NCBI GenBank assembly: GCA_005656395.1 | Contig: SRSI01000035.1 | Location: forward strand, 310,001-374,000 | DNA length: 64,000 nt | Direction: 5' to 3' | From: Strongyloides papillosus | Taxonomy: Eukaryota > Nematoda > Chromadorea > Rhabditida > Strongyloididae | Shown here: positions 18,385 to 47,321 of the stretch, piece after piece | Layout: each line of letters starts with the position of its first letter | How positions within the stretch are numbered: position 1 is the stretch's first letter | Notes under the pieces: generated by a model | What the model saw: the letters and a program-made list of their open reading frames with translations, nothing else | The model's database searches: none | What the model was told of the DNA's origin: nothing | Made by a program: the position numbers and the translations under genes

Positions 18385-20936
18385 TTACTCACGGTAATGT
18401 CCATTTAACCAATATGTTGTCATGACACCTTTCCCTTTAATAATAACTTCACCTCTGCACTCTAGATTATATTTATGAGTCTCATCCAAAAGATCATATG
18501 AACTTTGACTTATATGTATTCTACCTGGCTTACCGTTACTTTCCATTCTTGATGCAGTATTAACTGTATCTCCAAATAGACAATATCTAGGCATTGATAA
18601 ACCAACTACACCAGCAACACATGGTCCTGTATTACAACCTATACGTAGTGATAATTTGTATCCTGGTAAATGTGGTAAAGTAAATTTTTCACAAATATCC
18701 ATGAAATTTAAGGCTAGATCTGCTATCTCCTCGACATGTTTTGTGCCATTTCTGATTGGAAGTCCCGATACACATAAATATCCATCACCAATTGTCTCGA
18801 CTTTATAAACATTTAAATTTTCAATAACACCATCAAACAAACTATACAAATCATTAACTAAAGTTATTATTTGTATTGGTGAACATTTCAAGGATAGATC
18901 AGTAAATTTAACAATATCAGCAAAGAAAATTGTTACTGAATCAAAATTTTCTGGTTCAACAATTTTACCAAGTTTCAATTTTCTTGCTACAGCTTGTGGT
19001 AACATTCTTTCAAGTAACAAGTCACTTTTCTTTTGTTCCTCCTTTAATTCTTTTGATCTTTCTTCTATCTCTAGACGTAATGTTGAAGCATAGTCTTCTA
19101 GGATACCAAAAACATGATCCATTAAGTTTTTTGCACCACTTTCTTTTAATGTTTCCATTATATTTTTAATTTGTTTAATCGTTGGTCTTTTTTCAATTTC
19201 TTCACTCCAACTATCTTTGATAATTGTTACATAAGTCATATTTATTTCTATATTTGGTGGTATTTCAATATCAGGTCTTAAAAGATTATGTCCACCTCTT
19301 TTAACAAGATATATTATCTCTTCAACACTCTCTTTTCTATTATTATAATCAAATGGAAATTTTTTTGTAAGGATCTCCTGAACATATTATAGCAAAACTA
19401 TAAATATCACCCTCCTGTGATCCAGTTAAATTATCATTCCTCAATATTTCTGGCGCTGTCCACTAATTTATCTTTAGTTTTCATTTTCTGACAAGCTTCG
19501 ATAACTAAATAAGTTAAAATCACTAATTTTCAACTGCCATCTATCACTTATAAGACAGTTTTTTGAAGTTAACCTTCCATGATAATGTAAAAAACTATTG
19601 TGAATAAAATGTAAACCCTCAACAAGATCTTTTATTAAAGAAACTAAGAAAAATGCATCAAAAATTGAGTTGTCTGATTGAAGGATATCCTATAAAAAGA
19701 ATGTAATCAAAAAATTAATAAATTAAAACCTACAAAAAGGCTTCCTCTCTTACAATACTTCCACAAAGAGAGAGGGTAGTTTAGCGTCTAATGACATTCC
19801 ATAAAATTTATTAATATTATCATGCTCCCATGATAAAAGTTTACTTAATTCAATTTTCTGTTCTTTCGATGGTTCAAAAATTAATGAATGTTTCTCTCCT
19901 GCTACGGCTTCTCCCCCAAGATAAACAAACATAAATTTACCAGTTTCTCGTTTAGTATTTAATATATTCTTACTAGATTGTGATGGAACAGATGAAGTAA
20001 ATGAATTTAAACTCTTTTCAATTTCATTTTTAGCAGGTATACGTTTCTCTAGCTTAATATATGGTACTATCCAGCGTGTCAATTCTTCATTTTTTTTACG
20101 ATTAGTTTTTAATAAAACATATATGACAAGAATTGCAAAAAATAATATAAGTATTATAATTATTACACCAACAATAATCACTTCTTTGAGGTGATTTTTG
20201 AAAATATCAATAGGACATGAATTTGATTTATAACCACAAGTTGGAACGTTTAATGGAATTTTGTTTCCCCAATTAGCAAACATTCTTTTCGCAAAATCAT
20301 CAACTTTCAATTCTTTATTATAAAGCAAAACACTTGAAAAATTATATATAAAGTATACTGATGAAGATTCTGAATCATCCAAACCACGTAATTGTAAATA
20401 AGCTGTTCTAATACAATTTCTTTCATAATTCATGTCACCAGTCTTACCAGAATATGTTCCAGGACAGTGTTGACGTAATAAACTATAATTAGTAAATACC
20501 TCATCACCATATAATGGTAGTGTTTTGTTAAGTAATGATGCCCATAAGTAAATAGCATCATTTAAATACCAAACATATCTAGATAATGTTGTTAAATTAG
20601 ATACATCACAATCACTACAATAAAATGGCCATTTTTTAATGTTTTCTAAGATCTCTTTATCATCAATTAGTGATGTCGATTGTCTTCTCATTAAATCTAT
20701 ACTAAACATTTTTTTAGCCATCTGAAAAGCATCGTCACTCCTTCCATCTGGTGTGCTGTTATAAATATCTTTATAGAAAAGATAATATTCTCCTGATGAA
20801 TTTTTTACGTTAGTATAAAAACCAAAGTTTTTATATTCCATATTTATATGGACCCATTCGTCATTATTAAGACCATTATCAAACATACTGATTAAAAATT
20901 TTCTCTTATACATATCATCGTCAAAACATGATAATA
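18385..20936 (-). pseudogene. Receptor guanylate cyclase RGC-A, C-terminal half
   Basis: Carries the rest of the ligand-binding domain, the membrane span (VGVIIIILILFF), the pseudokinase domain and the cyclase domain of a receptor-type guanylate cyclase. It aligns base by base with intact RGC-B (49057-52319). The reading frame is broken: relative to RGC-B there are single-base gains near 19763 (LPLSLW region), 19491, 19465 and 19380, and the last codons diverge. The cyclase part alone stays open (19239-18385) and keeps FFADIVKF, YKVETIGDGY and CLFGDTVNTASRMES. Its 5' end stops at a TA next to the giant insertion; the missing N-terminal half lies 16.6 kb away at 37530-38220, same strand. It is a non-functional split copy. 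Confidence 0.9.
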
Positions 20937-21010
20937 CACAGAAAAAAAAAACGTGCATTTTCCGTCCTCTAAAAATTTGAATAATAATGAACAGTTCATT
21001 TTTCGTCCAC
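20937..21010 (+). repeat. Left terminal inverted repeat of the giant insertion
   Basis: Starts CACAG plus ten A, then CGTGCATTTTCCGTCC, followed at about 20997 by GTTCATTTTTCGTCCAC. Pairs with the right end at 37455-37527. Confidence 0.88.
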
Positions 21011-21520
21011 TGAATTTTTTATATTCATTTTTTATTCAATTTTTTTGACGCATAATTTGTTGTTAAATGTTGTCGCACATTATCATCTCCTGCGAATTTT
21101 TTTAAGAGTAACTTATTTTAACATTCTTAAGATAAACATGATACTTTTTCTGTATAATTTTTTTAATGTAGGTGTATAATTAATAATTTTTTTATAGTAC
21201 ATTCTACATTGCTCAAGTTCTGTTGTTTTTAAAGGTTGGTTTAAAATGTTGGTCAATTAATTCTGAAACATGTATAGTTTTTTAATATTTTTTTTATAAA
21301 TACTACAATAATTATTTAATCATACAAAGTTGAACTACCAGATTATTAGAATCTAACATTCGATGTTTTTAAAATGAATTAAATGAAACTTTTAATGAGA
21401 GTTGGCAAAAAATAATACAATTATATTATATGATATAAAATATTTAGATTTATAAATGAGAATAAAAATTGTTTTACACTATTTTCAAAAATTAAATTTA
21501 ATCAAATTATTTTGAAATAA

Positions 21521-21801
21521 TAAAGCTTTATCTATGTTTTTATGCAATGACACATGTTTCAAAATTCGTTCTATCTGATGCCTTCATAATAGATAGTGTA
21601 ACGGAAAATAAAATAAATGAATTTGATTTTGTTGCTTTTAAAAATACTGATGAAAGTAAAGTTTTAATTATTTTAAATAAGAATGAAGGAGATTTAAACA
21701 TTAAAATTAATTCTATAAATTCTAATGCTGTGAATATTGGAATTGTTAGAGTAGAAAAATATTCATTTAAGGCAATTGTTGATATTTTAAACACCAGATA
21801 A
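21521..21801 (+). pseudogene. Glucosylceramidase (GH30) C-terminal fragment
   Basis: An open stretch encodes the last part of a lysosomal glucosylceramidase. The segment FYAMTHVSKFV matches the FY-x2-GHFSKFI region of GBA-type enzymes, and NEFDFVAF...VLIILNKNEGDLNIKI matches the C-terminal beta-sandwich (NDLDAVAL...VVVLN). The reading frame ends at a natural-looking stop at 21799-21801. Upstream, an in-frame TAA (21517-21519) and the lack of other family exons show that the catalytic barrel is absent. A possible acceptor AAAG lies just before 21524. It sits about 600 bp inside the giant insertion, so it looks like a captured last exon with no function of its own. Confidence 0.7.
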
Positions 21802-22348
21802 TTTCATTTTTTTTATAGTTTGTGATATTTACTTTAAACTTCTTTATTATTAATATTGTTTTCTATGTATCCCTTTTTATTGTGAAATAAAATATATACT
21901 TATTTATCATTATGGTATTGAATTTAAATTTTATAAAATAAAAAAACATTAGACTTTCTCAATAAATTTTGAAATAGACACATAGCAAAACTTTTTTTAA
22001 TGATCACATTTAAAACACTTCACTTTCTCATTAAATTTTTAAAAGTACATAGGAAACATTTTATGGTATCTATGTGATGAGAGTAACAAAAACTTTGTAC
22101 CGTTTTTAACATATCGCGGTTTTTTTACCACATTTTGGTATCATATAAAAAAAGAGAGACATCGTACAAAAAAAAGTTAATTGACAAAAGATTTTTTATT
22201 GTATACTTTTTATTTCTTATACCGCTAATTTCATTTTATTTTAAAACATCTATTGAATCGCTGTGCGGAAAATTTTTTTTTAATTACTGAAGATTTTATT
22301 ATTTTTTATTAACATTTAATTACTTTCAGAATTTATCGTTCGGATATC

Positions 22349-24090
22349 ATGGGAGCAAAAAAATCTGAAGATACTCCCCCACCAACAACTGTGGAAGATG
22401 CAGAAGGAGGAAACAAAAATTATATTCATAGCTTTCCATCTAACCAAAGAGCTCCAGGAGGTAATTTTAAATTATTTAGTCTATTTTGATATTTTATTTA
22501 CAGGTAACATTTTTCAAAGACCTATGGGTACAGCAATAGTTCGTGGCAATGTCAATAAAGTTTCTTTCAATGTAAGACAACCACTAACTTTAGCTCCAAA
22601 TAATACCACGCATCGTACGGGTTATACAGGGTGGGCTAAAAGTCACATCACAGTTGCAATAAAACACTTTATAACAATTTTTTAGACGATATATTTCTAT
22701 GGTATTGCACGCATTTTGTAGAGGATGTGCTAGAGAATAATATATAACAAGATTGTTCTCAAGAATGAACTTAAAAAAAGTTACACAATTTCTTAATATT
22801 TGACATTTAAAAGAAATATTTTTCTTAATTTAAACCTATTTTAGAGTTTAAAATGCATAAATAACTTTCGTAGTAAGTCAATATTTTATACAATTATGTA
22901 TGGAAAATGATATCTTTTAGATGACCACCACCTGATTTTTTGCACAAACGTGCTCTTTCTAGAGCATTATTTATTACTACTTTTAAAATGGTTTCATCTG
23001 ATTTTTTGAAATTGTTTACCATATATAATATTGCACGTTTTGATACAGCTTGGATCACATTGAAGGGGATCCCGATTAATTCTAGGTTTAGCAATAGAAC
23101 ATTTGTTGGTATAATAATAACGAACTATTCTTAACCTTTCCTCAATAAAATATTTTCTTACTAAGGTAGCAACAATAGAAAATATATGAAAAAAAGTAAT
23201 ATTGTAAAAATGGTACATTTTATGAAGAAATACGCTTTAAACTAGCTCTATTAACATCAAGCATCTATTTTTTAATTAATTAAAATAGTATAAGATATAT
23301 CTTTAAAACAAAAATTTATACATTTTGATTTAACTTGATGTAATTTTTCGGTAAGATCATTCTTGAGAACGATCTTGTGGTATATTATTCTATAAATTAT
23401 TCCCTACAAAACGCATTTAAAATTATAACAATATGCTAACTGCAAAAAAAAGTTATAACGGTTATAAAGTGTTTCATGCAACTGTGATATGACTTTTGGC
23501 CCACCCTGTAGAACTTCTCTTCAACCTTCCTCAAATGCAAAACAAAACACCATGAGAAGTTTAGAAAGAATGTCAAATAGACTTTCAAGAAGTAATTTTA
23601 AAAATGGATTTAAAAAACCTCTGATGAAAAATTATATTCCTATTGACCGTCCATGTGACGTTATTTTTGAGGAAGATAGAAAATTGGCCGTGGACTATAG
23701 CCGTCCTGAAGAGATTGACGATGAGATTATTGTCAGTGGAGCAGGCAATGTGCCTAAATGTTATAAAACATGGGAAGAGGCCAACTTTTACCCAGCTTTG
23801 CAAAATACAATAAAAAATTCTGGATATGCTAAACCAAGAAAAATCCAGGCCTTTGCAATCCCCATAATTGCAAATGGTTTTGATTTAATCTGTCAATCTG
23901 AAGCTGCTTCTGGAAAAACAGTAGCATACTTGTTACCGATAATTGATGAAATGTTAAAAAGATAGTGGAAATCGAAAAATAAACCAAAAAGGCCATATGC
24001 TATGATAATCGCTCCAACACGTGAATTGGTCATTCAAATTAGTGAGTACACACAAAAACGATTTCTGACATTTTGGTATGTACACTGCAA
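22349..24090 (+). pseudogene. DEAD-box RNA helicase (DDX3/Vasa-like) pseudogene, N-terminal part
   Basis: Begins with ATG at 22349, has an ordinary 43-nt intron (22461-22503) and resumes in frame. It is interrupted by an 882-bp transposon at 22627-23508, and coding continues at 23511. The helicase core starts with the Q-motif region (NSGYAKPRKIQAFAIP), then motif I as SEAASGKT where A-x-TGSGKT is expected, then a premature TAG at 23963. After the stop, motif Ia is still readable (APTRELVIQ), and similarity fades by about 24090, so the DEAD box and the C-terminal RecA domain are missing. The retained intron shows this was copied as genomic DNA, not through mRNA. It lies inside the giant insertion. 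Confidence 0.85.
22627..23508. mobile_element. Mariner/Tc1-type element with long inverted repeats
   Basis: 882 bp bounded by CAGGGTGGGC[T/C]AAAAGTCA in inverted orientation and flanked by TA (22625-22626, 23509-23510). The inverted repeats extend about 160 bp, including TTGTAG...GAATAATATA and GTTCTCAAGAATGA blocks. A short minus-strand reading frame at 22894-23094 has a possible transposase C-terminal remnant (RLCKKSGGGHLKDI), so the element is a dead internal-deletion derivative. It disrupts the DEAD-box pseudogene; removing it with one TA rejoins that gene's frame. Confidence 0.88.
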
Positions 24091-24322
24091 AAATAACATT
24101 GTTACAATATATTTTTTAAAACGTCTCTCCAAATGAAAATTTACAATAATTACCGAAATTTTTAATCATAAGAGAGCATGGTTAATAAGTAAATTTATTG
24201 AATAATAAGTATAATGTAACAATAATTAACATTATTAATAACATGATAAAAATAAACTAGTTTTCAAGTAAAAAAATGTATTTTTCGAAAAGAAATTTGA
24301 TATATTATTGTATTTTTTCCTA

Positions 24323-24940
24323 ATGAATAGTAACTTTTTCAACTTATCATCAATATCATCTGTGGTAGATTCAGATGTTGCTCCCAAGTTTTGCCAAAAA
24401 ACAACAATTTACATACTTAAAATGTTAAATAAACTTTATAACACAAGAAAATTGGTTTCTTCTTTTCTTTTACTTGATGAAGTATGTTCGTCACTAAAAT
24501 TTGGAGAAAATTTTGATGAAAAAGAACTTATAAATATTCTTCAAAACATAGTTTGGATTACTAAAATAAAAATAGAAGAAAATGATGTTTCTGCTTTGAA
24601 GTTAATCGCATCAAGGTTGCTTAAAGTAAATAAACATTCTGTTGGAGAATCTTTTAATGATGAAAAGTATAATATCTTCTCCATAAAGAATAAAAATTTT
24701 ATTGGTGAATCTGATGGTGATTATATAACAACAAAGACTTCTGCAAATACATCAGCTCCAATTAAAAATAGTATTAGCTTAAGTTCCAATAAGCCTTCTA
24801 GTACTATTTCATCTAATCCAATTGATTCTAATTTACAATGTTCTACTACTATGCTTCCTTTAACTAACTCGAACAATTTTGATAAAAGTGAATTAAAAAA
24901 TAATAGTGCTTACAAAGAATTTTTTAACGATAATGAATAG
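24323..24940 (+). CDS. Unidentified 205-aa ORF inside the giant insertion
   Basis: Uninterrupted ORF starting at ATG 24323. The first 110 residues alternate charged and hydrophobic residues in a pattern that looks helical (for example FDEKELINILQNIVWITKIK). The rest is a Ser/Asn/Thr-rich low-complexity tail ending EFFNDNE. It has no signal peptide or membrane span, and I recognise no family. Codon use (GAA, AAA, GAT) looks like that of real genes here, and 205 codons without a stop is long for this base composition, so it may be a real gene or a recent fragment. It could be cargo of the element or one exon of something larger. Confidence 0.4.
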   Translation: MNSNFFNLSSISSVVDSDVAPKFCQKTTIYILKMLNKLYNTRKLVSSFLLLDEVCSSLKFGENFDEKELINILQNIVWITKIKIEENDVSALKLIASRLLKVNKHSVGESFNDEKYNIFSIKNKNFIGESDGDYITTKTSANTSAPIKNSISLSSNKPSSTISSNPIDSNLQCSTTMLPLTNSNNFDKSELKNNSAYKEFFNDNE

Positions 24941-27080
24941 AAAGAAAGAATGTTATATTTATTTATCTTAAAGCGAATTATAAAATTTGATGAAATTAAA
25001 AAAGGTGTTAAAAAGAGGGACGGATTAGTAGATTTTTAGTTAGATTATTAATTTTTGTTAGTAGATTTTTGGCGCTTTGTAATATTTCCCTAAGAAGTCG
25101 TCCAAATAAACTTTATAGAAAAATCATATTTTTTAAAAATTTTATCTGAATATTAAATATTTATAGATTTTTCACAAAAAACTAAAATTGTTTTATTTGA
25201 TTTTTTTCTTCAATAATGTGTTAGAAATAATATCTACAATAATGTAACTTACTGACACATGCTTTGTAATTTTGTTTTTTGCAATTTCCTTTAAAATCTA
25301 ACATAACATTAAATATTTTATAATAACAACAATTATCAGCCATTGGTAAATTCACAGAAACAGTGCGTTTGGTTTATCTTTAAAAAGTTGACCTACCACA
25401 AATATTTGTAGCAAAATTACCATTTTTAGTGTTTCATTATTATATTTAATAGAAAGAGAGATGGAAGAAAAGCTTATAATGAAAAATATGGTTAGCGATA
25501 TTTAGATTGATTTTTATATCAAAAGTAAAATTTTATATAATAAGAATAATAAAAGTTTTATTGGTGCCAATTTTTCCAGTAATGAACAAAATAACTAGAC
25601 AATAAAATAGGACAATAATAGTTATTAGTGACAGTTCTACAATAGACAATTATAAACAACACAAATATAAAAGTATAAAAAGATCTTTCACTTAACATTT
25701 TAGAGTCTTATATAATATAAAGTCATTAAATTTTTACTTTAATAAAGAAGAATCTAGATATTTACAGATCTTTTACTCAACACACAGAGATAATCTCATC
25801 ATTTTTTTCCCAATTCAATCATTTTTTTCTCTAAAAAATTAAATTTTTAATATAATTAATTTAAAATTTTTTCTATATAGTAGTTTGAATATTATTTCTA
25901 TTGTATAATATTTTTTAATTAGTAAATAAATAGTCAGTTAACTTATCTAATTTTAGAAATAATATATTGTATTTATATTTTTATTGTGGTTATATGAATA
26001 CTTACGACTTCTGAAATATGCAAGACCTCTTATTTAAATCTCTCTAACCTTATTTATAGTCACTCTATTTTATACGATTTATCATAACACTACTTTTTTA
26101 ATTTTTATATATGAGAAGATTTTATAAATATAACAAGGTAGTACTTCATATCCATTTAATTATAAATCTATTTGAAACAGTTATATTCCATGTGGATATA
26201 TAATTTACAAATAAATTATTTGAGCATTTAAATTATCAAATACTAGGTAAAGAACATCATCTTAACATTAAAATGATTAAAATTCTAATTGGCTTACAAC
26301 ATTTTTGAGGATTAAAATTTCTTTAGTGTTTTTTCAATCAAAGGCTCCATATACCATGATGGACATACATACCAAAGATGGAAGCTATTGGACAAGTTTG
26401 AAGTTTATAAAACAAGTCCGGATTTTCATTTCCTGAATTTCATGAAATCCATAGACACTAATTTCTAAAGAACAACTTCAAGAAGTCTAAAAAACTTCTA
26501 TATATGTATATTTGAGTTCATATAAGACAAAATTGAATTATTTTAGAAAAATATATTTGGCCAACAATTATCGAAAATTGGACCTCAAGATTTAGACCCC
26601 AAAATATCCCATTGAATTTGCCGTATTCAATTGCATATACCCGAAAATATTTATTCCTGTGAAGTAAATACTTCTTGATATTGAAACATCTATTTTTAAG
26701 ATTATCAATTTCTAAAAGCGAATTTTGTTATATATGTATTCGGGCATTTTTGCCCATTGCAAACATTAGGATTGAAACTTTGCCTAATATTGTCGATTCA
26801 ATTTTATTAGATTTAAAAATTAAAAAAACATTTTTCCAATTTTTGCAATTAAACAATAATTGCATTGTAAATAAATAGCTCAATGCATTGCAATAGGTAT
26901 TAAAAAAACCATGAAAATGTCCGAATTTGTTTTTGTGTGTATGGAAGAAAATTGTGTGAAGGAACAAAACTTTGCTGTGCAATGTTGTATGGTCAAAAAA
27001 CAAAAGATTTTTTCAAACACATAAAATCAAATTCTTCGTCTACTATACATATGATGAGGGTTTAAATAATATATATATAG
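24941..27080. other. AT-rich non-coding interior of the giant insertion
   Basis: About 2.1 kb between the unidentified ORF and the LTR element. I see no convincing gene; a 67-aa frame at 26675-26878 has no recognisable features. Confidence 0.45.
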
Positions 27081-27299
27081 TGAAGGTGTTGTGATAAAAG
27101 GAATAAATAAATTCCAAATAGGAGAACAACAGTATGATAATACCATCAAAGCCATTCAATTTATAAAGTATAGATATTGTTTTGTTTAGTGATTGTTATT
27201 AATATTAAGTGTTAATTTTTATATATGTTAATTGTTAATTATGATTGTTGTTAATATGTTATTTGTAGGCGAGACTACACAAATAAAAATATTTTACTT
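27081..27299 (+). repeat. 5' LTR
   Basis: 219-bp direct repeat starting TGAAGGTGTTGTGATAAAAG and ending AAATATTTTACTT; matches 29387-29605 at a constant offset of 2306 bp. Confidence 0.88.
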
Positions 27300-27363
27300 C
27301 TGTATCAACGTGTATTGGACCTTATATTTTACTTGGGGAAAAGAAGGTCAATACTGGGGGTTG

Positions 27364-29400
27364 ATGAAGACAGAAGAGATAGATTTGTGTGAGACTATTT
27401 TAAACGGAATCCTAGAGATCTTTGGAGTGAAAAAGGAGAATCTAGGTGAAGGTGTTTACGAGGAAGTAGTAAAGGTTCTGAAAGAAGATCTTTTAACGCG
27501 TAAACCGGAGGTTGTAGCCAAGAAGACCTTGAAACTGTTGAGAGAGAAGGATATACTCACTCAGGAACAGACAGAGGAGGCTTTAAAGACGCTTGAAGAA
27601 GAAGTTGAAAAACAAGTTAAGGTTAAAGAAGATTCGGGAGAAAAGATGGCTGAAGCGGTTCAAAGGATGGCAACTTCGCCTAAGTTAATGACAGTTATGC
27701 AAAAGTTGGAACCCAGAGCTGGTAACCCAAGGTTGGTAAATCAATGGTTTGAGGAATTTGAGGATAGATGGACCCTCAGTTATACAGCCGAGGAAAGAAA
27801 CCAACAGGAGAATGCAGAGTTAAAGCTGGTCCACTTACGTATCTTGTATGGTATGAAGGTTCGTACGTTTATGGATGGTAAAGCAAACGAACTTAAGGAT
27901 ACGTACGATAAGGCTAAGAATCTGATCTTGAAAAGATTTGGATCGGACAGTAGAGAGAATGACATTGATAAATTGGTAAACTTCAAGATAAGGACGGAGG
28001 ATCCAGAACAGTTCAATGAAGACGCCCAAAGGTACAGAGATCTCATAGAGAAAGCCTATGGAGATGTTAGGGAGAAAGAACTGCTGAACCGTCTTGGAAG
28101 TATGTTGAGAGGAGATTTGCAGACCATGTTCTTTACGTATATGGCAAGTATTGAGGACTATGATGACATGGTAGCAAAATTGATTCAGTATATGAACATC
28201 AAAGGATCAATGAGGGAAAAGAAATTTAAAAGTAACGATAAGGAAATGTTACAGAAGAATGGAAGTTTTAAGGAGAATGAAACTTCTCTGGAAAAGAAGA
28301 AATGTTATTCATGTGGAGAGCTAGGTCACTTAAAAGTTCTATGTCCACAAAGAAAAATGAAAGAAGAAGTAAAAACCACAGAAAGTGCTAGCAAAATTAC
28401 GGAAGATGCTAAGGACAGGAGAATAGAAGAATTGACAGCAATGGTCAACCGCCTATCAAAAATGGTAAATGAAGAAGAAAATACAACCAGAGTTTGTAGA
28501 AGGGTAGATGTAACTGTTGAAAAGAAAAATAAAGATGAGAAAAAGAAATTTAAAGAATTTTACGTTATGGGATCAATATGGCATAAAAATAAGAAAAAGG
28601 ATGAGATAACTGAGGTACCAGTTATATGTTTGGTGGATACTGGTTCAACAAGAACTATTATTACTGAATCAGTTTATCGTGTGGCAACTAAGAAAAATTC
28701 ATGTAATTTGAAACCAGTTATTTTCAATTTAGCAGATGGTAGTGTATGGCCTTTGAAAGGAGTTGCAGAAATATCTTTGAAATTTGGAAGTGTAAAAGTA
28801 AATGTAGAAGTTGGTATATGTCGTGATGAAGACTTTAATTTTGGTAAAAATCAAACAAGATATTCGGTAATGTTAGGATCTGATGTACTGACAGCGGCTA
28901 ATGCAAACTTAAATTATGGAACAAATGAAGTTATGTTTGAAAATATCTTGGTACCATCGTTTATGGAAATAAGGAACCTAAAGAAAAAGGAAATTAGAAA
29001 TGTCTTCAGAATAACAAGTGAAGGAAAGAATTTCAGAAAAGGAAACAAACCACCTAACAAAACTAGTTGGGGGGATGTACAAGAAAAAGTTTTCTTGAAG
29101 ACTAAGAAAAATTTAAAAGGTTTATGTGATTTACACGTAGGAATTCGGAAAAATGGTCGTTGCAACCAACGTGGTGAAGTAATTTCAGTAGGAGACTCTG
29201 AAAAGGAAAAATTTAAGAAGCATAAGTCTTATGTAGCATGGAAAGGAGAATATGTTATGAAAAGAAGATTTCACGATAACAGTATTTGTAAAGTTAGTAA
29301 AGGAGATGAAATACGATATTTGGTCCAAAACCATAACCATCTGAAGATTGAAGAAGGAGGAAGTAAAGCTTCAAAGAAGGGGGAAGTGAAGGTGTTGTGA
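27364..29400 (+). CDS. Gag-protease polyprotein of LTR element
   Basis: Single 678-aa ORF from the first ATG after the 5' LTR; an upstream in-frame ATG lies inside the LTR. Residues 1 to about 300 form a charged, helical Gag-like part. A CCHC zinc knuckle (CYSCGELGHLKVLC, C-x2-C-x4-H-x4-C) starts near residue 314. A retropepsin-type aspartic protease follows with VDTGST at about residue 424 and a closing MLGSDVL motif near 500. The last 150 residues are strongly basic and match no domain I know. The stop codon lies 14 nt inside the 3' LTR, and the polypurine tract is translated. The uninterrupted frame suggests recent activity. It lacks polymerase domains, which separates it from complete Gypsy or BEL elements. 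Confidence 0.85.
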   Translation: MKTEEIDLCETILNGILEIFGVKKENLGEGVYEEVVKVLKEDLLTRKPEVVAKKTLKLLREKDILTQEQTEEALKTLEEEVEKQVKVKEDSGEKMAEAVQRMATSPKLMTVMQKLEPRAGNPRLVNQWFEEFEDRWTLSYTAEERNQQENAELKLVHLRILYGMKVRTFMDGKANELKDTYDKAKNLILKRFGSDSRENDIDKLVNFKIRTEDPEQFNEDAQRYRDLIEKAYGDVREKELLNRLGSMLRGDLQTMFFTYMASIEDYDDMVAKLIQYMNIKGSMREKKFKSNDKEMLQKNGSFKENETSLEKKKCYSCGELGHLKVLCPQRKMKEEVKTTESASKITEDAKDRRIEELTAMVNRLSKMVNEEENTTRVCRRVDVTVEKKNKDEKKKFKEFYVMGSIWHKNKKKDEITEVPVICLVDTGSTRTIITESVYRVATKKNSCNLKPVIFNLADGSVWPLKGVAEISLKFGSVKVNVEVGICRDEDFNFGKNQTRYSVMLGSDVLTAANANLNYGTNEVMFENILVPSFMEIRNLKKKEIRNVFRITSEGKNFRKGNKPPNKTSWGDVQEKVFLKTKKNLKGLCDLHVGIRKNGRCNQRGEVISVGDSEKEKFKKHKSYVAWKGEYVMKRRFHDNSICKVSKGDEIRYLVQNHNHLKIEEGGSKASKKGEVKVL

Positions 29401-29605
29401 TAAAAGGAATAAATAAATTCCAAATAGGAGAACAACAGTATGATAATACCATCAAAGCCATTCAATTTATAAAGTATAGATATTGTTTTGTTTAGTGATT
29501 GTTATTAATATTAAGTGTTAATTTTTATATATGTTAATTGTTAATTATGATTGTTGTTAATATGTTATTTGTAGGCGAGACTACACAAATAAAAATATTT
29601 TACTT
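29387..29605 (+). repeat. 3' LTR
   Basis: 219-bp repeat identical to the 5' LTR as far as I can compare; supplies the stop codon of the Gag-protease ORF. Confidence 0.88.
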
Positions 29606-30164
29606 ATTTTTAATAATTTGATAGCACTTTTATTGTTGTTTACATGGGCAAAAAATTTAGAAATAATTAATTTTTTAGGTTAAAAGATTAATGAAAAAAA
29701 TAACAAAATACTATGATTGTTTCTCAAAGTAAAACACATAAAACTAAACAAAAAATGTATTCAATAATAAAGAAAAAAAACCCTCAAAATCATAAGAAAT
29801 GTTAATTTTTTTCTTACAAAAACGCATTATTTCTATATTTAACAAGTATTATTTTATTGAAAAAATACAATGTTTTAATAATCAAAATAATGATAAATTA
29901 GCATATAAAATACATACAATTCTCTTTTATTTGTTATGTATAATTTAAAAAAAATTGAATACTAAAATTTACAAAAAGCATAACGTTTTTTTGTTATTAC
30001 ATATTATAATAAAAAACGAAGGAATAAATAGTAAAAAAATATAAGTGGTTTGGCTAATAGATTTATTTTATTGGCGAACACACATAAAAAAAATAAAACG
30101 GCACAACACAAAAAAACTATAAAGTAATTAACACATAGACAATTATTAAAGAATTATGATGACT

Positions 30165-30240
30165 TACCCAAGGTCGGCTCCTTGGTTCCTATAACAGCCA
30201 GAGAATGACCGAATAGGTGAAACATCATCTATTTATACTA
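30165..30240 (-). promoter_or_regulatory. GC-richer island with TATA box and 5' splice donor
   Basis: On the minus strand a TATAAATA (30237-30230) is followed by about 55 bp of unusually GC-rich sequence and then GGTAAGTCATC at about 30170. It contains the hairpin CCAAGG-TCGGCT-CCTTGG. A short frame (ATG at 30225, about 20 codons) reads into the donor. It looks like a promoter plus first exon, or a retroelement leader, whose body is missing downstream. Confidence 0.3.
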
Positions 30241-30715
30241 TAAAAAACAATGACATAGGAACGCGTCATTTTTTACTAAATATTTTATGATTATTTGACA
30301 GGTGACCCTTCGTTTTGAAAAATAAAACTAAACCTTTTTTTCTTCAAAACATGGAATTTTATTTAATCAAAGTAACCAACGCAGTTGATAAATTCAATGA
30401 AATGTACTGTTATTAAAGAATATTATAATTTCTGGAGAAGTTTTTATGACGTAAATAGAAGTTGGGTAAGAATATTTAGTATAATTGATTATTATATAGC
30501 TAATCAGGATAAAATAAATTCTTTTAAATGACAAGACAATTGGGGTAATCCAGATATTGTAAGTTTTATATCTCAAGAAATAGCTTTTTAATTTCATTTT
30601 TTACTAATTAAATATAACTGAAGTTGTGAAAAATAAACAAACATATTCTCTGAAAGTTGTCTATCGTCCGGTTAAGTTTAAAGATTTTTAAGTTTTAAGT
30701 AAAAATGTTTTAGAA

Positions 30716-31151
30716 TGTACAAATATCATTTGAGTATTGTGAGTATAGTAGAAAAAATTATTCTATACAATCAATTCAAACGCTTTTAAAAGATGTAGAA
30801 GGAATTGTGATAACAGATAATGATGTACCTGAGAAAAATAGGCATCATAAACATGGAGGTATAAGAATTAAGTGTTGCTGTGGATGAACCAAAAACAGTT
30901 ATACTTAGAGAGCTTCAGGAGAAACAAATAAATAAAAAACAACTGTTAAAAATCTTAGTACTTATAAAATTGATTTTAAAGTAGCAATAAAATTTTTTTC
31001 ATCCAAGTTAGTCTGTTTTAGTAGTGTAACAGGAGCCGATAAAATTGCTATTCAGGGAGATGTTGTTGATGAGTTATCTGATGTTATTCCAGGCAAATGG
31101 CTCTACATCACTGAAGATGACACAGATGAAATTGAAGATAAAAAAAAGTAA
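30716..31151 (+). pseudogene. DENR (density-regulated protein) pseudogene, intronless
   Basis: Similarity spans nearly the whole of DENR, the translation re-initiation factor that works with MCTS1. In order: Cys-rich start (FEYCEY), a basic GGIRIK-like linker, then the SUI1-type domain with STYKIDFKVAIKFF and SVTGADKIAIQGDVVDEL, and the acidic DEIED tail with a lysine end. The copy has several frameshifts and in-frame stops (around 30727, 30870-30890 and 30925-30950) and no introns, so it may derive from mRNA. The last 70 or so codons are nearly intact, ending at a natural stop (31149-31151). It lies within the giant insertion. Confidence 0.78.
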
Positions 31152-31268
31152 AATCTTTAATTCTATTTGTGATACATTCATCTGTTAAAATATATATAAC
31201 CTTACTGCATTATTTTAAGTCAAAAAAATACATTTATTGAAGATTAAAAGAAAATAATAGTAAGAATT

Positions 31269-31472
31269 TTGAGAGAATTGAAAACAAAAATTAAGTCAAA
31301 CAAAAAAGTAGACTTTTTTTATTTTGAGGGCCAAGAAACTAGTGAAGATATTAAAATGACCGAGTGTGATGAAAGTAAAACTTTACAAATTTTGGGAATG
31401 GTAGAGTATCTCTTTATTGTTAAAAATGATTATATTATTATTTATTTTATCATTGATTTTTTGTCTATATAA
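31269..31472 (+). pseudogene. Small protein fragment, possibly ubiquitin/SUMO-like
   Basis: A 67-codon open frame without an ATG start contains FFYFEGQETSED and LGMVEYLFIV, vaguely like the last two strands of SUMO-type folds (F-x-F-DGQ...LGMED-x-I). The match is weak. If real it is a broken fragment like its neighbours. Confidence 0.18.
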
Positions 31473-31498
31473 TAAGTTTGTTAATAAATATACTTATA

Positions 31499-32444
31499 CA
31501 CAGAAAAAAAATGGGAAACATTTTTTTGTAAAATGTAATGAATTTTTCCCACCTAACAAAATTTGAATTTTCTAATTTGCGACTAATTTTAACGCAATTA
31601 TATCGTACATAAAAATTAAACAATAATTAAGTAGTTATTAAAATAAGTTTCTATTTTTTATTATATTATTGTTATTTTAAAATTTAGATTTTCTTCTACA
31701 ATACTTTTTTAAATATAAGATTAGAATTTAATTTTATGTAAGATTACATATGCTTTCATAAAGAGCTTTCTTTAACATATCACAATATTTTTGTTAATAA
31801 GTTTAAGTAGTTTGAATTATTATAAATTTTACTTTTTTATGAAGTTACACTCTTCTGAAGGCGGAATTTTTTTTGGTACTTTAAAGGTCTCATTTAAAAA
31901 TCAAATCTATGAAAAGTTATAAAATTATATGGATTTTTATCTATAGTAAAAAATATCTTCTACATATTTAAAGTTAATATATGAACAAGTACTAAAATAA
32001 TATTTTTAATTATTAATGCTTTGTGTGGTTAAATAATAATTTTTAGCTTTTTGTTATTATTATTATAAATTTTTATATTTATTGTTACTAGTAAATTGTT
32101 TAAGATAATGATTTTTGTTAAAACTTAACAACTTTACACGAAATTGAGTTTTAACAACGTATTTCATGTATATTAGAAAAAAAAAACTAGATCCTAAGAT
32201 TAGAATTATATTAAAAACATTAAGATTAAATAAAAGTTACATTATTTAAAATATAAAACAATTATAATTTTGTAAAAAAAACAGCAAAGTTTTGCGACAA
32301 CCTCGTATTTTTCATCATTTAAAACATTTTTGCTGTCGCTTGATAATTTTAAAATTTGAATAAATGTTGGTTTTTTTAACAGGTGAGAATTTTTATTGCA
32401 TTTTATGTAATAATGTCAAAATTTTTCCCATTTTTTTCTGTGTG
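31499..32444 (+). mobile_element. MITE copy 2 (CACA-tipped family)
   Basis: 946 bp flanked by TA on both sides (31497-31498, 32445-32446). Ends read CACAGAAAAAAAATGGGAAA (left) and CACACAGAAAAAAATGGGAA (right, other strand). Interior shared with copy 3 over its whole length and with copy 1 in reverse. No ORF. It sits directly against the start of the satellite array. Confidence 0.87.
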
Positions 32445-32449
32445 TACTT

Positions 32450-34905
32450 AAATATGTTGATTAGAATATGCTTAAACACATATATAAAAATTATGAGAAA
32501 GTAATGTATAGTTTTGAAAATATTGCCATATTTATTCATTATACTTTATAAATATATGATAAATAGAAATGTATGAAAATCGTTTTTTCAAATGCTACAG
32601 ATAGTAAATACGAGTTTTTGGAAACAATCAAAATACCTAGATATGTTAATTAGAATGTGCTTAATCATATATATAAAAATTTTGAGAAAGTAATGTTTCG
32701 TTTTAAAGAAATTGTCATTTTCATAGCTATACGTTACTAAGATATTATATACATAGATGTATGAAAATTGTTTTTTCAAATCCCATAGATGGTAAATTTG
32801 ATTTTTTAGAAACAATCAAAATACCTAGATATGTTAATTAGAATGTGCTTAATCACATATATAAAAATTTTGAGAAAGTAATGTTTCGTTTTTAAGAAAT
32901 TATCATTTTCACTAAAATACGTTACTAAGATATTATATATATAGATGTATGAAAATTGTTTTTTCAAATGCCATAGATGGTAAATTTGATTTTTTAGAAA
33001 CAATCAAAATACTTAGATATGTTAATTAGAATGTGCTTAATCACATATATAAAAATTTTGAGAAAGTAATGTTTCGTTTTTAAGATATTGTCATTTTCAC
33101 AACTTTATGTTACTAAGATATTATATATATAGATGTATGGGAATTGTTTTCCAAAAGCCATAGATGGTAAATTTGATTTTTTAGAAACAATCAAATTACT
33201 TAGATATGTTAATTAGAATGTGCTTAACCACATATATCAAAATTGTAGGAAAGTTATGTTTCATTTTTAAGTTTTGTTATTTTAATGATCATGCTTTATT
33301 TTATATTCGTATATAGATGATGTATGGGAATTCTTTTTCAAAAGCCATATATGATAAAAATGATTTTTTAGAAACAATCAAAATATATAGATATGTTGAT
33401 TAGAATGTTCTTAATCACATATATCAAAATTGTAGGAAAGTTATGTTTCATTTTTAAGTTTTGTTATTTTAATGATCATGCTTTATTTTATATTCGTATA
33501 TAGATGATGTATGGGAATTGTTTTTCCAAAAGTCATAGATGATAAAAATGATTTTTTAGAAACAAATGGAATATTCAAATATGTTGATTAGAATGTGCTT
33601 AACCACATATATCAAAATTGTAGGAAAGTTATGTTTCATTTTTAAGTTTTGTTATTTTAATGATCATGCTTTATTTTATATTCGTATATATATGATGTAT
33701 GGGAATTGTTTTTCCAAAAGTCATAGATGATAAAAATGATTTTTTAGAAACAATCAAAATATATAGATATGTTGATTAGAATGTTCTTAATCACATATAT
33801 CAAAATTGTAGGAAAGTTATGTTTCATTTTTAAGTTTTGTTATTTTAATGATCATGTTTTATTAATATATCGTATATAGATGATGTATGGGAATTGTTTT
33901 TCCAAAAGTCATAGATGATAAAAATGATTTTTTAGAAACAATCAAAATATATAGATATGTTGATTAGAATGTGCTTAATCACATATATCAAAATTGTAGG
34001 AAAGTTATGTTTCATTTTTAAGTTTTGTTATTTTAATGATCATGCTTTATTTTATATTCGTATATATATGATGTATGGGAATTGTTTTCCAAAAGCCATA
34101 GATGGTAAATTTGATTTTTTAGAAACAAATGGAACATTCAAATATGTTGATTAGAATGTTCTTAATCACATATATCAATATTGTAGGAAAGTTATGTTTC
34201 ATTTTTAAGTTTTGTTATTTTAATGATCATGCTTTATTTTATATTCGTATATATATGATGTATGGGAATTGTTTTCCAAAAGCCATAGATGGTAAATTTG
34301 ATTTTTTAGAAACAATCAAATTACTTAGATATGTTAATTAGAATGTGCTTAACCACATATATCAAAATTGTAGGAAAGTTATGTTTCATTTTTAAGTTTT
34401 GTTATTTTAATGATCATGCTTTATTTTATATTCGTATATAGATGATGTATGGGAATTGTTTTTCCAAAAGTCATAGATGGTAAATATGAGTTTTTAGAAA
34501 CAAATGGAATATATAAGTATGTTGATTAGAATGTGCTTAATCACATGTATAAAAATTATGAGAAAGTAATGTTTCGTTTTCAAAATATTGCCATTTTTAT
34601 GCATCATACCTTACTGATATGTAGTATATATAAATGTATGAATATTGTTGTTTCAAATGCCATAGATGGTAAATTTGAGTTTTTAGAAACAATCAAAATA
34701 CCTAGATATGTTGATTAGAATGTACTTAATCACATATATAAAAATTATGAGAAAGTAATGTTTCGTTCTTAAGATATTGTTATATTTATTTATTATATTT
34801 TACTTATTTATGACATATATAAATGTATGGAAATTATTTTTTAAATGCTATAAGTGGTAAATATGAATTTTAAGAAAAAAATATCTTAAAATGTTGATAA
34901 AAATG
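32450..34905 (+). repeat. Satellite array, about 187-bp period, 13-14 units
   Basis: The anchor TGTTRATTAGAATGTGCTTAA recurs at about 32456, 32643, 32831, 33017, 33207, 33396, 33582, 33774, 33957, 34144, 34329, 34518, 34707 and, degraded, 34891. Two subtypes exist. Outer units carry GAGAAAGTAATGTTTCG; central units carry GGAAAGTTATGTTTCATTTT plus GATCATGCTTTATTTTATA. Open frames of 65-75 codons inside it on both strands are artefacts of the repeat; 187 is not a multiple of three, so frames shift from unit to unit. Confidence 0.92.
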
Positions 34906-37454
34906 ATCTTAATAACATTATCAAAAAATTTAAACGCTGATTTACTTATTTCTAAAGATTTTGTCTTTTAGAGTTTCTAGCATATTGAAATCCGGATTTC
35001 CAAATGTCAAATGATAAAGATATATTTTAAACAAAATATAGTACTCAAGATTACAATTGTTTTAATTAAAAAACAGTTAAACTGACATTATGGATGTGAT
35101 AGTGTTTACAAATTTATAAAATTTCTCTATTTTAGTATTAATTACTGTTATAAAACTGTAACTAACTCAAGATAATTGATAAAGCAAAACAGCATTTTTT
35201 CTAAATGTTAATAAAATTTTTGTTACTTATTTTATTTTATGTTTGGAATCAAACACAACGCATACATATTATTTATTATTATAATTTTTTTATTATCTTT
35301 GGTAACTATTTTTTGATTAAAACAATTTTAATTTAGAATATTAAATTTTATCTAAAATAATTTTTATCTTTTGCAATTTGTAAAAGTCGAGTTTTAATTT
35401 ACTATAAATTTTAACAAAATAAAATTTATAATGATAATTAAATCAACATTTTCAATTATTCATATTTCAATTTATTAATATTCCAATATATTAATACTTC
35501 AATTTATTAATACTTCAAGTTTCTAATATGTTTTAGATAGCTAATAATAACAAACTTTTGTAATATTAACTCAAATAAACAATTGCTAGTTTAGTTATTT
35601 TCATCGTATAACCTTTTAATCAAGTTAATAAATTTATAGACTGTACTTCTAATGCAATAGATCAAATTAGTATGTAAATATACTGATTAGTTTAGATAAA
35701 TCAGGATTTGAAAGTTTCTCAAAATTTTAAGGATTATAAATATACTATATAAATTAATTTGTTTAATTAAAATAAAAATCTAGTACTAATAATACTTTTA
35801 ACTATCTTAGTTTATTAGTAAAGTAATTTTTAAAATTTTTCAATTCTTTATAATTTTGACTTCTTAATTTGTTAATTTCTTTAAATATATTATTAAGGTG
35901 CCAATTTTTTATTATCTTATAAATATTAAACCAGGGAGTAGGTAGATTATGTGTAATGTTATTAAAGATGGAATAATTAATAGGCGATGAAAAAGAAAAA
36001 TTGTAAAAATAATATGCTACTTTGCTAAGTTGATTTTTGGATATAAAGCATTATTTTAATATTTGTATATACAAAGTTTTAGTGAAAGATAATTTGTTTG
36101 CAAATCTTATAACATGCATTTGCACTTAGATTTAGTGCACAATTTAAATTAAAAAGTTAAGAAAATATTTATAAAATCTTCTATCTTTATAAATAATATA
36201 AATTCCAAAAACACGCGAAATAAAAAAATTTATCAAATTTAAATGTATTCAATATTTTAAAAAACTAAGTAAATTTTACTATTTTTTTCATGTCCATTAT
36301 TAGACAAAATACATTATGTAAAAAAAATGAAAGGAATGTTTCCGCTCATCATTTTTTGTTTAGTGATTTTAAAAACGAAGGGTATATGCATTTAATAATA
36401 TTTGACATAAGCATATTATTTTAAAATAGTTATCTATCATATTAACTGTATATACAAAAAAACAAAATGTATTTTATTTTGTGAAATTTTGTATATGCAA
36501 AAATGAGGCATACGAAAGTATATGCACAAAAAAAATTGTTTTACATAACAGCCTTCGTGAGAGAAGAATTTGATTTTATGTGAATCAGGCTTTAACTTAT
36601 TTTTAAAGTATTTCGAAAAATTGTTATGCACAACTCAAATTTTACAGCAATCGTCTTTATAAGTTTAAAAATCCAAAGACGCATAATGACTATTTAAAAA
36701 CATTATCTATTCTTTAAATACAAGCATATGATTTTCTAAACCAATAACAAGAATTTAATTGTTTCGAACTACAGCAAAGCATGTTAACAATCATGATAAT
36801 AAATGGTCTATATTTTAAATTTCCTTAATTTTCTAACAATATATATATAAAATAAAGTTAATAAATATTAAATATTTCTTAGCACACCTCACGAATTACA
36901 AACATTCTCTTAAGATATGTAAAAATCACTGTCTTTATTAGAAGTATATTTTAAAGTTTTTTTTTTACACTTTAAAGATAGAAAAATTTACACCTTTAGG
37001 AAATCTAAATTAAATATTTTGTGTTTTTTTAAAAGACAGCGATAGATTTATAATACTATAAAAATAAAGTCAATAAAACATTAGAAGTATACGATATCTG
37101 GTATAGCAAGAAAAATTCAGTTTACTAAAAAAATTAGGTCGTTTATATAAAAATGAAAGAAAGTTAAGTATAATTCCTCAAAAAAAAAGTAATTTTAACA
37201 TCCAAATTTGATTTATTAAATATCATATACTGATATAGATATTCTGACCTTGTAAACAAGTAGCCATCAAACAAAGCGAATAGAGCTGCTTGTAATTTTA
37301 ATGATAAAAGATTCAATTTCAATTATACTCAAAATTTACACCATATAAATTTCGCTTATTTTTGTGTAATTTTGGCGGAAAAATTTAACTAGCTTTGCGG
37401 TAGCGATCAAAATTAATTTTTAAAATTATCTAAAAATTTAAATATAATTTTTTT
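34906..37454. other. AT-rich non-coding right flank of the giant insertion
   Basis: About 2.5 kb between the satellite and the right inverted end. Only short unsupported ORFs occur. I see no gene, RNA or array. Confidence 0.45.
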
Positions 37455-37527
37455 CATAGGACAGAAAATGAACTGTGGACGAAAAATGATCCTTTAGGAC
37501 GGAAAATGCACGTTTTTTTTTTGTGTG
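37455..37527 (-). repeat. Right terminal inverted repeat of the giant insertion
   Basis: Read on the minus strand it starts CACAC plus ten A, then CGTGCATTTTCCGTCC, followed by two more CATTTTTCGTCC-like motifs (ending near 37459). Mirrors 20937-21010. Confidence 0.88.
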
Positions 37528-37529
37528 TA

Positions 37530-38220
37530 TAACTCTTGTTTTATCACTTATTTCCTTTAAAAATTTCCCAAATTCTTCGTATGTTGGATCGAAGGAAGTT
37601 TTGAAAGATTGTACAATTTGAACATGAGAATTTGTGTAACCCAATACTCTCTCAAAGTCAATAAACATTTTTTGACACCTTTCAAAATAATTAGTGGTAT
37701 AGATGAATGCTACACTCGTCCAATTGAAATGTTCTAATACATCAACAGTAGCTACTCCTAATGAAAAAAATATAGCATAAGTAGAAAAAATATTTGGTAA
37801 TCTATTAAGATCAGCAACATCTGATGTTGATACAGCACCCCATATAAATGTTGGTACACTGTAAAATTTTGCCATTATTGTCGACCTTATTGCTGCTGAA
37901 TTACAAGTACTTCCAAAAATAACATCGACTTTATGATTGTGAATTAATTCAAAAGCTCCAGAACTAGCATTAGGACCAAGACAATCATCATAGAATGTAT
38001 GAAATGTATAGTTATAATTAGGTAATAAATTTTCATTTTTTATTTGATTTAATGCTGATGTTACCACTCCAGCAGACTGGAGATATCCAGAGGTTGCCAT
38101 GAGTAATGGGGAGTTTCGGACAAATAAAAATCCCAAATTTATTTGTTTTTTAGTATAGCAATTAATAACAAAATATAATTGTACAATAATAAAAATATGT
38201 ATTAAGTTATTAAACATCAT
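37530..38220 (-). pseudogene. Receptor guanylate cyclase RGC-A, N-terminal half
   Basis: Encodes the signal peptide (MMFNNLIHIFIIVQLYFVIN) and the first 210 or so residues of the ANF-receptor-type extracellular ligand-binding domain, for example VDVIFGSTCNSAAIRS and FNWTSVAFIYTTNYF. It aligns with RGC-B without gaps up to EKTRVI-like residues, then runs directly into the inverted end of the giant insertion at TA 37528-37529. The remaining domains are at 18385-20936 on the same strand. This half keeps an open frame, unlike the C-terminal half. A readable tail after the junction is transposon sequence, not protein. Confidence 0.9.
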
Positions 38221-38491
38221 AATGTGTTCTTAATATTTTTAATAATTATAAATTTATATTTATAAAAATGAAATAAAATTATTAAAAGTATATTATTTAT
38301 TTATTTATACAAGGATTAAATTTTATAAAAATTTGAAAAGATTAATATTTGAGATTTCTTGTCATAAGATATTTCTGTAGATGATAAATATTTAGTGTTT
38401 AATGTATATATTATTTGTCAATATAGAAATATACAAATTTATTTTTTTTTGTTGTTGTTTATAAAATGGAAAAAATGACATGGATAAGAAA

Positions 38492-40255: not shown

Positions 40256-41496
40256 ATGAAACAGATTAAGATAATATTACTTATAATACTAGTATGCATT
40301 ACAATTGCAAACAACGTATGTTCCACTTTAATTTAATTTTATTCATTATTTAGAATGTTATTGGCAAAAAAAGTAAAAAGAAATTACCAAAAACAACGTC
40401 AAAAAGACCACATACGACTACACCTGTTTCTGATTCTTTCATATTTAATAGAACAATTATGTATGCTATAGATGCAAATCTAAGTTCATATAATCATTAT
40501 ATGATAAAATCCGCTCTTCAGCTAATGGAACAAAAAACATGTTTTAATTTTTCTATAACAAACAATATTTCATCACATAATACATTAGTTTTTAAATGGA
40601 ATACTTGGACTAATTATTGTGCGGCTATGGCGGAATATAAGGATCGTTATATAATATATAAAATTTTGGTTAGTAAAGATTGCATTAGAAGAAGAGATAG
40701 ACTTCAGAAATTGATGTACTGGAGTCTTGAAATGAGATATCAGATGGAGCAATGTCTTCAAAATAAGACGAATGGTCCTGGTCAAGGAAATATTACAGAC
40801 CGATTAATGCCGGATGTTTTGAGAAAGTACAGGTGTAATGCTGCTCATTTAAATGAGACATCTCATTTCTTAGAACCATATTCATTTGGATATTATCCTA
40901 AAAAAGTTCCAAAAACAGATAATATAGAGCCTAAAAATTTGGAACAAAAAGATTATTCTGCTGAATTTTCATTTACTAATCTCAAAACTTTAAATAGCAG
41001 AATGTGTAATGATAAATGCCAAAACGATTCTTCAAAATATTGTAAAAATAAAGCATTAAGAAGCCCAAGAAATTGTGATGAATGTTTGTGCCCATTTTTC
41101 TACAAAGGAAAAAAATGTTTTGAATTTGAAAAATCCAAATATTGTGGAGATCAAAAGTTAAAAGCTATTTCAAAACAAAAAAATAAATTTTTAGATTTTA
41201 AATCAGATTGTTATTACATTATTAAACCTAAAGGAAAGTCAAAAAAAGTTTTATTAAAATTTCAAGCAATTGGTGATGCTTATTGGGCATGTGATGAAGA
41301 CAAACTTATTGAAATTAGGTATTCGAGAGATAAATCAATAGAAGGGGTAATTCCATGTGGACATATAAGAAATTTTACTGTAAAAGGATATAAAGGTGTG
41401 AGTATTTTAGTGTATACATCTGAATTGGCATATGAATTTTCTAAAATGGCATATGAATTTAAATTAAAAATGGAATATAGAGAAGTTAGAGCTTAG
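40256..41496 (+). CDS. Astacin-family protein lacking the zinc site, copy 1
   Basis: Secreted 400-aa protein with astacin architecture. Exon 1 (40256-40315) encodes a signal peptide (MKQIKIILLIILVCITIA); after a 38-nt intron, exon 2 is 40354-41496. The astacin domain start is recognisable (EQKTCFNF). At residues about 140-154, where HExxHxxGxxH should be, the sequence is LMYWSLEMRYQMEQC: none of the three zinc-binding His nor the base Glu in HE is in place, so it cannot act as a metalloprotease. An EGF-like module (six Cys, ending CLCPFFYKGKKC) and a CUB-like domain follow. No propeptide of usual length is seen, only a Lys/Thr-rich linker. It is a tandem paralogue of 43586-44799. Confidence 0.88.
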
Positions 41497-46262: not shown

Positions 46263-46394
46263 AACTTATTACAACATTACTTAAGATAATTGTAAATAAA
46301 TACTAAAATTAAAAATATAAAACAACTTTAAGATTTTATTTATTTAAATTCTCATTAACAACAATAATTAAAGATATTTATAAAAAAAAAACAA

Positions 46395-47030: not shown

Positions 47031-47321
47031 AATAATTAAATAGCAAAAAAAAATGATAAAACCTACACTTAACTAATTAATAAATGCATTTAAAAAATAC
47101 GCAAAATAACAATTACATTTTGATGAAAAAACAAGCGCCATGTGTAAGGATTCCACTCCAATATTCTGGATAGGATATTCGACCCGCGCTATAACACAAA
47201 TAAGGACTGCTATTAGTATATCATATATATGACTCATTTAGTTGGAATTTTTGACAAATCAAATCATGTCGTTTAATTTTAAAGAGTATTTAATATATTA
47301 ATTTTAATAAATTAATTTGGA

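Follow-up and report, generated by a model that had tools for sequence, protein, structure and literature searches.

A large terminal-inverted-repeat element carrying host-gene fragments interrupts a receptor guanylate cyclase gene in Strongyloides papillosus

The insertion in RGC-A and its empty site

The stretch of interest is a 64-kb window from the parasitic nematode Strongyloides papillosus (GenBank assembly GCA_005656395.1, contig SRSI01000035.1), which corresponds to C21:310001–374000 in our contig numbering; the assembly comprises 58.2 Mb in 79 contigs. Throughout, "the window" means this whole stretch of 64,000 nucleotides. It contains two paralogous receptor guanylate cyclase genes, RGC-A and RGC-B, the first of which is interrupted by a 16,591-bp insertion bounded by terminal inverted repeats (TIRs) at positions 20937–37527. 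The features at the locus are:

20937–37527, + strand: whole TIR-bounded insertion, 16,591 bp; second copy on contig C7
20935–20936, no strand: left TA target-site duplication, read from the sequence; empty site in the RGC-B frame
37528–37529, no strand: right TA target-site duplication, read from the sequence
20937–20967, + strand: left TIR, 30/31 against the right TIR
37497–37527, − strand: right TIR, 30/31 against the left TIR
20937–21110, + strand: left (L-type) subterminal region, two CATTTTYYGTCC motifs; common to short relatives
37290–37527, − strand: right (R-type) subterminal region, three CATTTTYYGTCC motifs; common to short relatives
37530–38229, − strand: upstream half of RGC-A; the break lies in the ligand-binding region
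19750–20934, − strand: RGC-A downstream half, where the gene resumes
50400–52322, − strand: RGC-B, uninterrupted paralogue with an ANF_receptor domain; empty-site control

The two ends read CACAGAAAAAAAAAACGTGCATTTTCCGTCC (from 20937) and CACACAAAAAAAAAACGTGCATTTTCCGTCC (inward from 37527) and are identical at 30 of 31 positions; inverted-repeat detection pairs them over 35 nt at 97%. Under a model of base composition only, the chance expectation for such a pair of ends is about 3e-6 in 18.5 kb. The CATTTTYYGTCC motif occurs five times in the window: twice at the left end of the element and three times at the right. When 120 bp from each side are rejoined with a single TA between them, an open frame runs through the junction, and the rejoined 240 bp match RGC-B positions 51509–51748 at 87.5% identity without gaps. 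A TIR-bounded insertion with a TA duplication splitting RGC-A is thus confirmed. These were the central claims of the initial annotation, a reading of the DNA letters alone, and each of them (the insertion and its ends, the duplicated TA at 20935–20936 and 37528–37529, and RGC-B as the uninterrupted site) is borne out.

A second copy, nested inserts and captured gene fragments

The insertion has a second complete copy, on contig C7. The C7 copy is 9,905 bp long, has TA/TA flanks of its own and runs collinear with that in the window, from which it differs in lacking three blocks:

22627–23508, no strand: nested Tc1-like element with CAGGGTGGGC tips; TA duplication; absent from C7
24049–26939, no strand: nested element with TA duplication and TIRs (CACACAAAAACG ends); absent from C7; right junction as in contig C27
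27080–29605, + strand: nested long terminal repeat (LTR) retroelement whose two LTRs of 220 bp are identical; neither C7 nor C27 has it

The first two blocks measure 882 bp and 2,891 bp, and each is flanked by a duplicated TA; at the place of the 24049 insert, the C7 sequence reads GAGTATGG. Including their duplications, the three inserts amount to 884 + 2,893 + 2,529 = 6,306 bp, leaving a remainder of about 10.3 kb. This core is common to the window and C7 copies at 97–100% identity (188-bp tandem array, described below, excluded), and was therefore already present before the two copies separated. Since the C7 copy is collinear, 9.9 kb long and flanked by TA, a unit of roughly 10 kb was mobile, and nesting accounts for the rest. 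The initial annotation had offered a choice between a single large element moving as one and a small element filled by later insertions; each alternative is right in part, the former for the unit of about 10 kb and the latter for the 6,306 bp of nested DNA.

The retroelement gives matches to a gag zinc knuckle and a protease that fall a little under the Pfam cut-offs. The 22627–23508 insert yields a single weak helix-turn-helix match (DUF4817, E 0.017, under the cut-off), and on this match and its tip sequence we take it to be Tc1-like. Within the 24049 insert, an open reading frame (ORF) at 24272–24940 finds no match in Pfam; it resembles, at 93%, an S. papillosus entry annotated as ATPase_AAA_core domain-containing protein, and two of its three database relatives are named S. 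papillosus. The left end of this insert also occurs at C27:311001–331000 (L023/L024), on other flanking DNA and with TA beside it, and the right junction there is identical to that of the window. The C27 left-end arrangement is possibly an alternative-end event, and the 24049 insert could have entered the window copy by exchange. Because the shared right junction raised the idea, we considered a unit of about 13 kb moving together with the insert; the C27 left flank differs and the identity is mosaic, and we do not claim such a unit.

Two repeats belong to the interior of the element itself:

31496–32449, no strand: older interspersed TIR element, ends CACAGAAAAAAA; the C7 copy has it too
32445–34926, no strand: 188-bp tandem array, 13.2 units

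Relatives of the CACAGAAAAAAA-tipped element occur at roughly 70–87% identity in several other examined loci. The array has 13.2 units in the window copy (C21), 11.2 in C7, 7.2 in C27 and 5.4 in C42, and none was reported in C35:1–9000. GC skew is positive across 27001–35000, a region covering the nested retroelement and the array. Identity between copies (computed without counting gaps) changes abruptly along the element. Compared with C7, the window copy shows 97.4–98.1% over 29593–31495, 100% over 34930–36000 and 97.2% over 36000–36580; compared with C27, it shows 98.0–99.1% over 29593–31495, above the C7 value there, and 90.7% over 35560–36000. These shifts suggest that copies have exchanged segments or that templates were switched between them; uneven constraint may be an alternative source.

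The most informative part of the core, missed by the initial annotation, is a set of captured fragments of host genes:

21538–21836, + strand: 3' part of a glucosylceramidase-like GH30 glycosidase gene, captured; comprises the end of the coding sequence, the stop and about 50 bp past it
22320–22626, + strand: DEAD-box helicase fragment, 5' part, captured
23509–24048, + strand: DEAD-box helicase fragment, continuation, captured; Pfam PF00270
30936–31148, + strand: C-terminal fragment of DENR with a SUI1 domain, captured; Pfam PF01253 and a PDB match

In a Pfam scan of the C7 version, the GH30 piece matches the GH30 C-terminal domain (PF17189, 2.7e-9) and the helicase fragment the DEAD-box domain (PF00270, 7.6e-16); in PDB, the GH30 piece finds a bacterial GH30-type chain weakly (2.1e-5). 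The GH30 peptide has five genome matches, of which four are element copies (C7, C36, C21 and C35). The fifth, C41:135671, is a 584-amino-acid open frame with 83% amino-acid identity to the piece and 89% DNA identity over 299 bp, and is likely to be its source gene. The DNA match with C41 begins inside coding sequence and extends beyond the stop, which favours a captured template of DNA rather than RNA. The DENR fragment carries SUI1 (PF01253, 6.7e-9) and matches residues 129–197 of Density-regulated protein in PDB (2.8e-13). Its peptide has 21 genome matches; the likely DENR gene behind it is C1:4317023, a 181-amino-acid frame with 67% identity, and several matches at 80–90% suggest an older amplification. 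The DEAD-box peptide has 48 genome matches, including ordinary helicase genes, with several at 56–79% interrupted by stops; the five best database relatives of the ORF comprise four from S. papillosus and one from S. venezuelensis. The sources of the DENR and DEAD-box fragments are less certain.

A related unit lies on contig C35, where an R-type end (an 87% variant) and an L-type end are about 14.4 kb apart. It holds the same GH30 piece together with (i) a longer DEAD-box fragment, (ii) a P5A-ATPase piece (PDB 1.8e-90), consisting of three consecutive ORFs split by single in-frame stops and with a source-like match at C29:359919 (96–97%), (iii) a Ski2-like helicase piece (PDB 5.6e-11; no match in Pfam), and (iv) a receptor-kinase piece, to which the IGF-1 receptor is closest. 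The right arm with the Ski2-like piece occurs on C14 as well, where 4.08 kb match C35 at 98.4%.

The end family and the search for a transposase

The initial annotation had proposed looking for further copies by their ends. Genome-wide, the end motif gives 18 matches with at most two mismatches, seven of them exact and two of them the window itself; a reversed-pattern control gives two. With the left 404 bp as the query there are 19 genome matches, four of them full-length at 95% or more. The right 529 bp give 37, among which seven reach at least 92% over most of their length and three are left ends found via the TIR. Setting aside two motif matches that are not end-like (L015, L018) and two with decayed tips (L014, L016) leaves 14 clean CACA tips. 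TA adjoins 10 of these 14, compared with a TA frequency of 0.116; the binomial tail of 3e-7 treats the ends as independent, although the window and C7 copies each contribute two of them.

The family also exists without captured sequence. At C1:991566–992294 lies a short relative of 729 bp, in the order TA, TIR, R arm, L arm, TIR, TA. Another, on C43, is 75% alike across bases 1–716 of a 738-base query; at C15:210770–211119 both arms fall inside about 0.35 kb, and at L048 inside 0.95 kb, with the outer left tip decayed. These short relatives (0.35–0.95 kb) have the same convergent R...L layout as the window element, and therefore the two ends in RGC-A belong to one element. The initial annotation had recognized that its reading would fail if the ends came from two separate short elements, each with a second end of its own; the repeated layout, with the C1 relative complete, speaks against this.

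No transposase domain was found in a Pfam scan of the 11 core ORFs of at least 70 amino acids (two of them in the C7 version), a result that holds for the ORFs scanned, given that shorter (unscanned) or highly diverged pieces may escape. To this extent the initial annotation was correct that none is visible inside. Elsewhere in the genome, PF13358 (Tc1-type DDE_3) occurs at 53 places and PF03184 (pogo-type DDE_1) at 17, among the matches listed. A DUF1280 protein encoded 3.7 kb away from the right end on C19 was considered as the enzyme of the family and rejected: its relative at L057 is an intact 632-amino-acid frame inside long inverted repeats of its own, and the C19 and L057 loci match each other across the DUF1280 stretch without the ends of the window element. 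The protein apparently belongs to another element. The L057 frame (L057:1952–3847) looks transposase-type, of a separate element family whose tips are partly resolved.

Other parts of the window hold several arrays of minisatellites whose units are of the CCTGTAAATG and CCTGC types (45666–48113), an aromatic amino acid lyase ORF of 571 amino acids (4768–6483; PF00221, 3.2e-182), two related astacin-like ORFs, one slightly under the Pfam cut-off (40354–44799), and serpin ORFs (574–2744). Nothing in the window was found by Rfam (at gathering scores) or ARAGORN.

Origin of the element and its place among known systems

We consider it probable that the window element is a large, multi-copy, Pack-TIR-like non-autonomous DNA transposon that carries host-gene fragments and was moved in trans into TA sites. 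Directly visible, and carrying this reading, are the ends, the TA duplication, the empty site, the C7 copy, the nested inserts, the short relatives and one likely source gene. The properties that define Pack-TIRs are all present: paired TIR ends with a target duplication, an identifiable source, cargo-free relatives, and no transposase of its own found. The starting point would have been a short TIR family of about 0.7 kb, with CACA tips, TA duplications and asymmetric L and R subterminal regions bearing CATTTTYYGTCC boxes. In one such element the interior would have been swapped for captured DNA, including the GH30, DEAD-box and DENR pieces, probably through gap repair or template switching. 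The product of roughly 10 kb would have kept both ends and so could be moved into TA sites, presumably by cut-and-paste, by a transposase encoded elsewhere. One copy would have inserted into RGC-A, and the Tc1-like element, the other TA/TIR element and the LTR retroelement, none of them in C7, now sit inside it; exchange between copies may also have taken place.

Several observations weigh against this reading. Four of the 14 clean ends have no TA beside them (L005, L006, L011 and L017, with AA on C27, AA on C42, AT on C35 and AT on C19), and only two complete large copies with TA on both sides are known. The C35 unit is flanked by TA on one side and by AT on the opposite one; we handle it as chimeric, and not as a clean third copy. 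The DEAD-box fragment is part of a wider multi-copy family, which leaves its capture undated, and the comparison with sources at the DNA level covers GH30 only, the likely DENR gene being just 67% identical in protein. The CMC transposase PF02992 has no genome matches, with a silent control. No listed transposase place lies near the ends (PF13358 at least 12.9 kb and PF03184 at least 93 kb off, measured from the best candidates to 52 end-like places from the end-motif, left-end and right-end searches; mariner PF01359 was not searched). Finally, the movement of the element is deduced from sequence and was not itself observed.

The rival explanations differ in how much of this they would change. 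In one, which changes the superfamily only, the element is a true giant Tc1/mariner (IS630-type) element with cargo, mobilised in trans by a Tc1/mariner transposase. The TA duplication, absent as noted from four clean ends, and the DDE_3 and DDE_1 matches in the genome agree with it; the distance of these listed transposases from the ends, the CACA tips, and the subterminal boxes and asymmetric arms, which are nearer to those of CACTA elements, do not, and we think it rather unlikely. TA duplications are common to several transposon superfamilies, and CACA tips are unlike those of Tc1 or mariner. With no transposase tied to the ends, the Tc1/mariner framing of the initial annotation is not established. 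CACTA/CMC elements are defined by tips beginning with CAC, repeated subterminal boxes and duplications of 2–3 bp; the window element has CACA tips, two plus three CATTTTYYGTCC boxes and TA, a resemblance and nothing further. The window element is a TIR DNA transposon, and we leave its classification at that level.

The remaining alternatives concern the integrity of the unit. Two separate short TIR elements flanking host DNA could have moved jointly, as each end taken singly resembles those of short elements and other CACA-tipped elements occur in the window. This is very improbable: one end is L-type and the other R-type, related as in the short R...L relatives, the end motif is found nowhere else in the window, and C7 has the same arrangement. 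It is equally hard to credit that a short element landed in RGC-A and grew there to 16.6 kb by nesting. The 6,306 bp absent from C7 and the retroelement LTRs, identical over 220 bp, speak for such growth; however, the 10.3 kb with gene fragments, array and older TIR element are common to C7. The C7 copy thus rules out in-place growth of the core, and this account is right for the three inserts only. Least probable of all is an assembly artefact joining unrelated sequence within RGC-A. The junctions are known from the assembly alone, but an artefact would have to produce an exact TA duplication, a frame-restoring empty site and another copy with TA flanks of its own.

Beyond the Pack-TIR-like reading of the RGC-A element, we tentatively raise a wider possibility, which we hold slightly less likely to be right than wrong: a lineage of gene-collecting TIR transposons in which a short TA-targeting element would undergo repeated capture of pieces from unrelated host genes, growth to 10–14 kb, amplification, exchange of segments between copies during repair, formation of new gene chimeras and occasional gene breakage, as in RGC-A. 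The host-gene pieces in this putative lineage are GH30, DEAD-box and DENR in the window, and P5A-ATPase, Ski2-like helicase and receptor-kinase in C35.

Plant Pack-MULE and Pack-CACTA elements are non-autonomous TIR elements that have taken up fragments of genes, and CACTA elements have repeated subterminal boxes. Their hosts differ, and the window element is tied to no MULE or CACTA transposase. It shares the TA target duplication with Tc1/mariner elements, and departs from them in its CACA tips, size, subterminal boxes and the lack of any transposase found. In the accessible part of a survey of animal Pack-TIRs (Tan et al. 2021, PMC8277862), 370 are described, with a median duplicated region of 224 bp; four (1.4%) are multicopy, multicopy forms lie away from their source, 115 of the 370 are TcMariner, and a figure legend includes at least one worm case. 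Like these, the window element is a TIR element with duplicated host sequence and an identifiable source copy; unlike those described there, it has a core of about 10 kb, three recognised gene fragments, and two complete plus partial copies. The Caenorhabditis elegans transposon Turmoil-1, as presented in the available text of Sela et al. (2008, PMC2572040), is likewise a nematode DNA transposon that has incorporated host coding fragments, two in number: it is 5,024 bp long, has a Harbinger transposase and holds the fragments inside 760-bp inverted repeats. Whereas Harbinger duplications are usually 3 bp, the window element has TA, 31-bp TIRs and no transposase found. Red alga En/Spm (CACTA) families, according to the accessible portion of PMC6431247, are TIR DNA transposons of similar size, enlarged to 16–20 kb with 4–5 ORFs; the window core, by contrast, has host-gene fragments and no recognised transposase. 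DNA transposons named in the accessible part of a small-RNA study of S. ratti are TcMar-Mariner and Merlin (PMC9203780). Among the matches listed in a search of the open-licence literature by title and abstract opening, no earlier report of the window element was found.

Transposons that carry genes are known already, but in an animal it is unusual for one to be this large and present in several copies. Plant TIR transposons are well known to capture genes, and the cases in the animal survey are, in its accessible part, mostly short and single-copy (PMC8277862). In the S. papillosus element of about 10 kb, multi-copy and carrying pieces of several genes, capture, growth by nesting and exchange can be traced to source genes in a parasitic nematode. 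It also serves as a warning: some annotated genes in Strongyloides may be transposon cargo, as illustrated by P0006, a helicase entry in the public S. papillosus data that matches the C35 DEAD-box fragment at 95% across most of its length.

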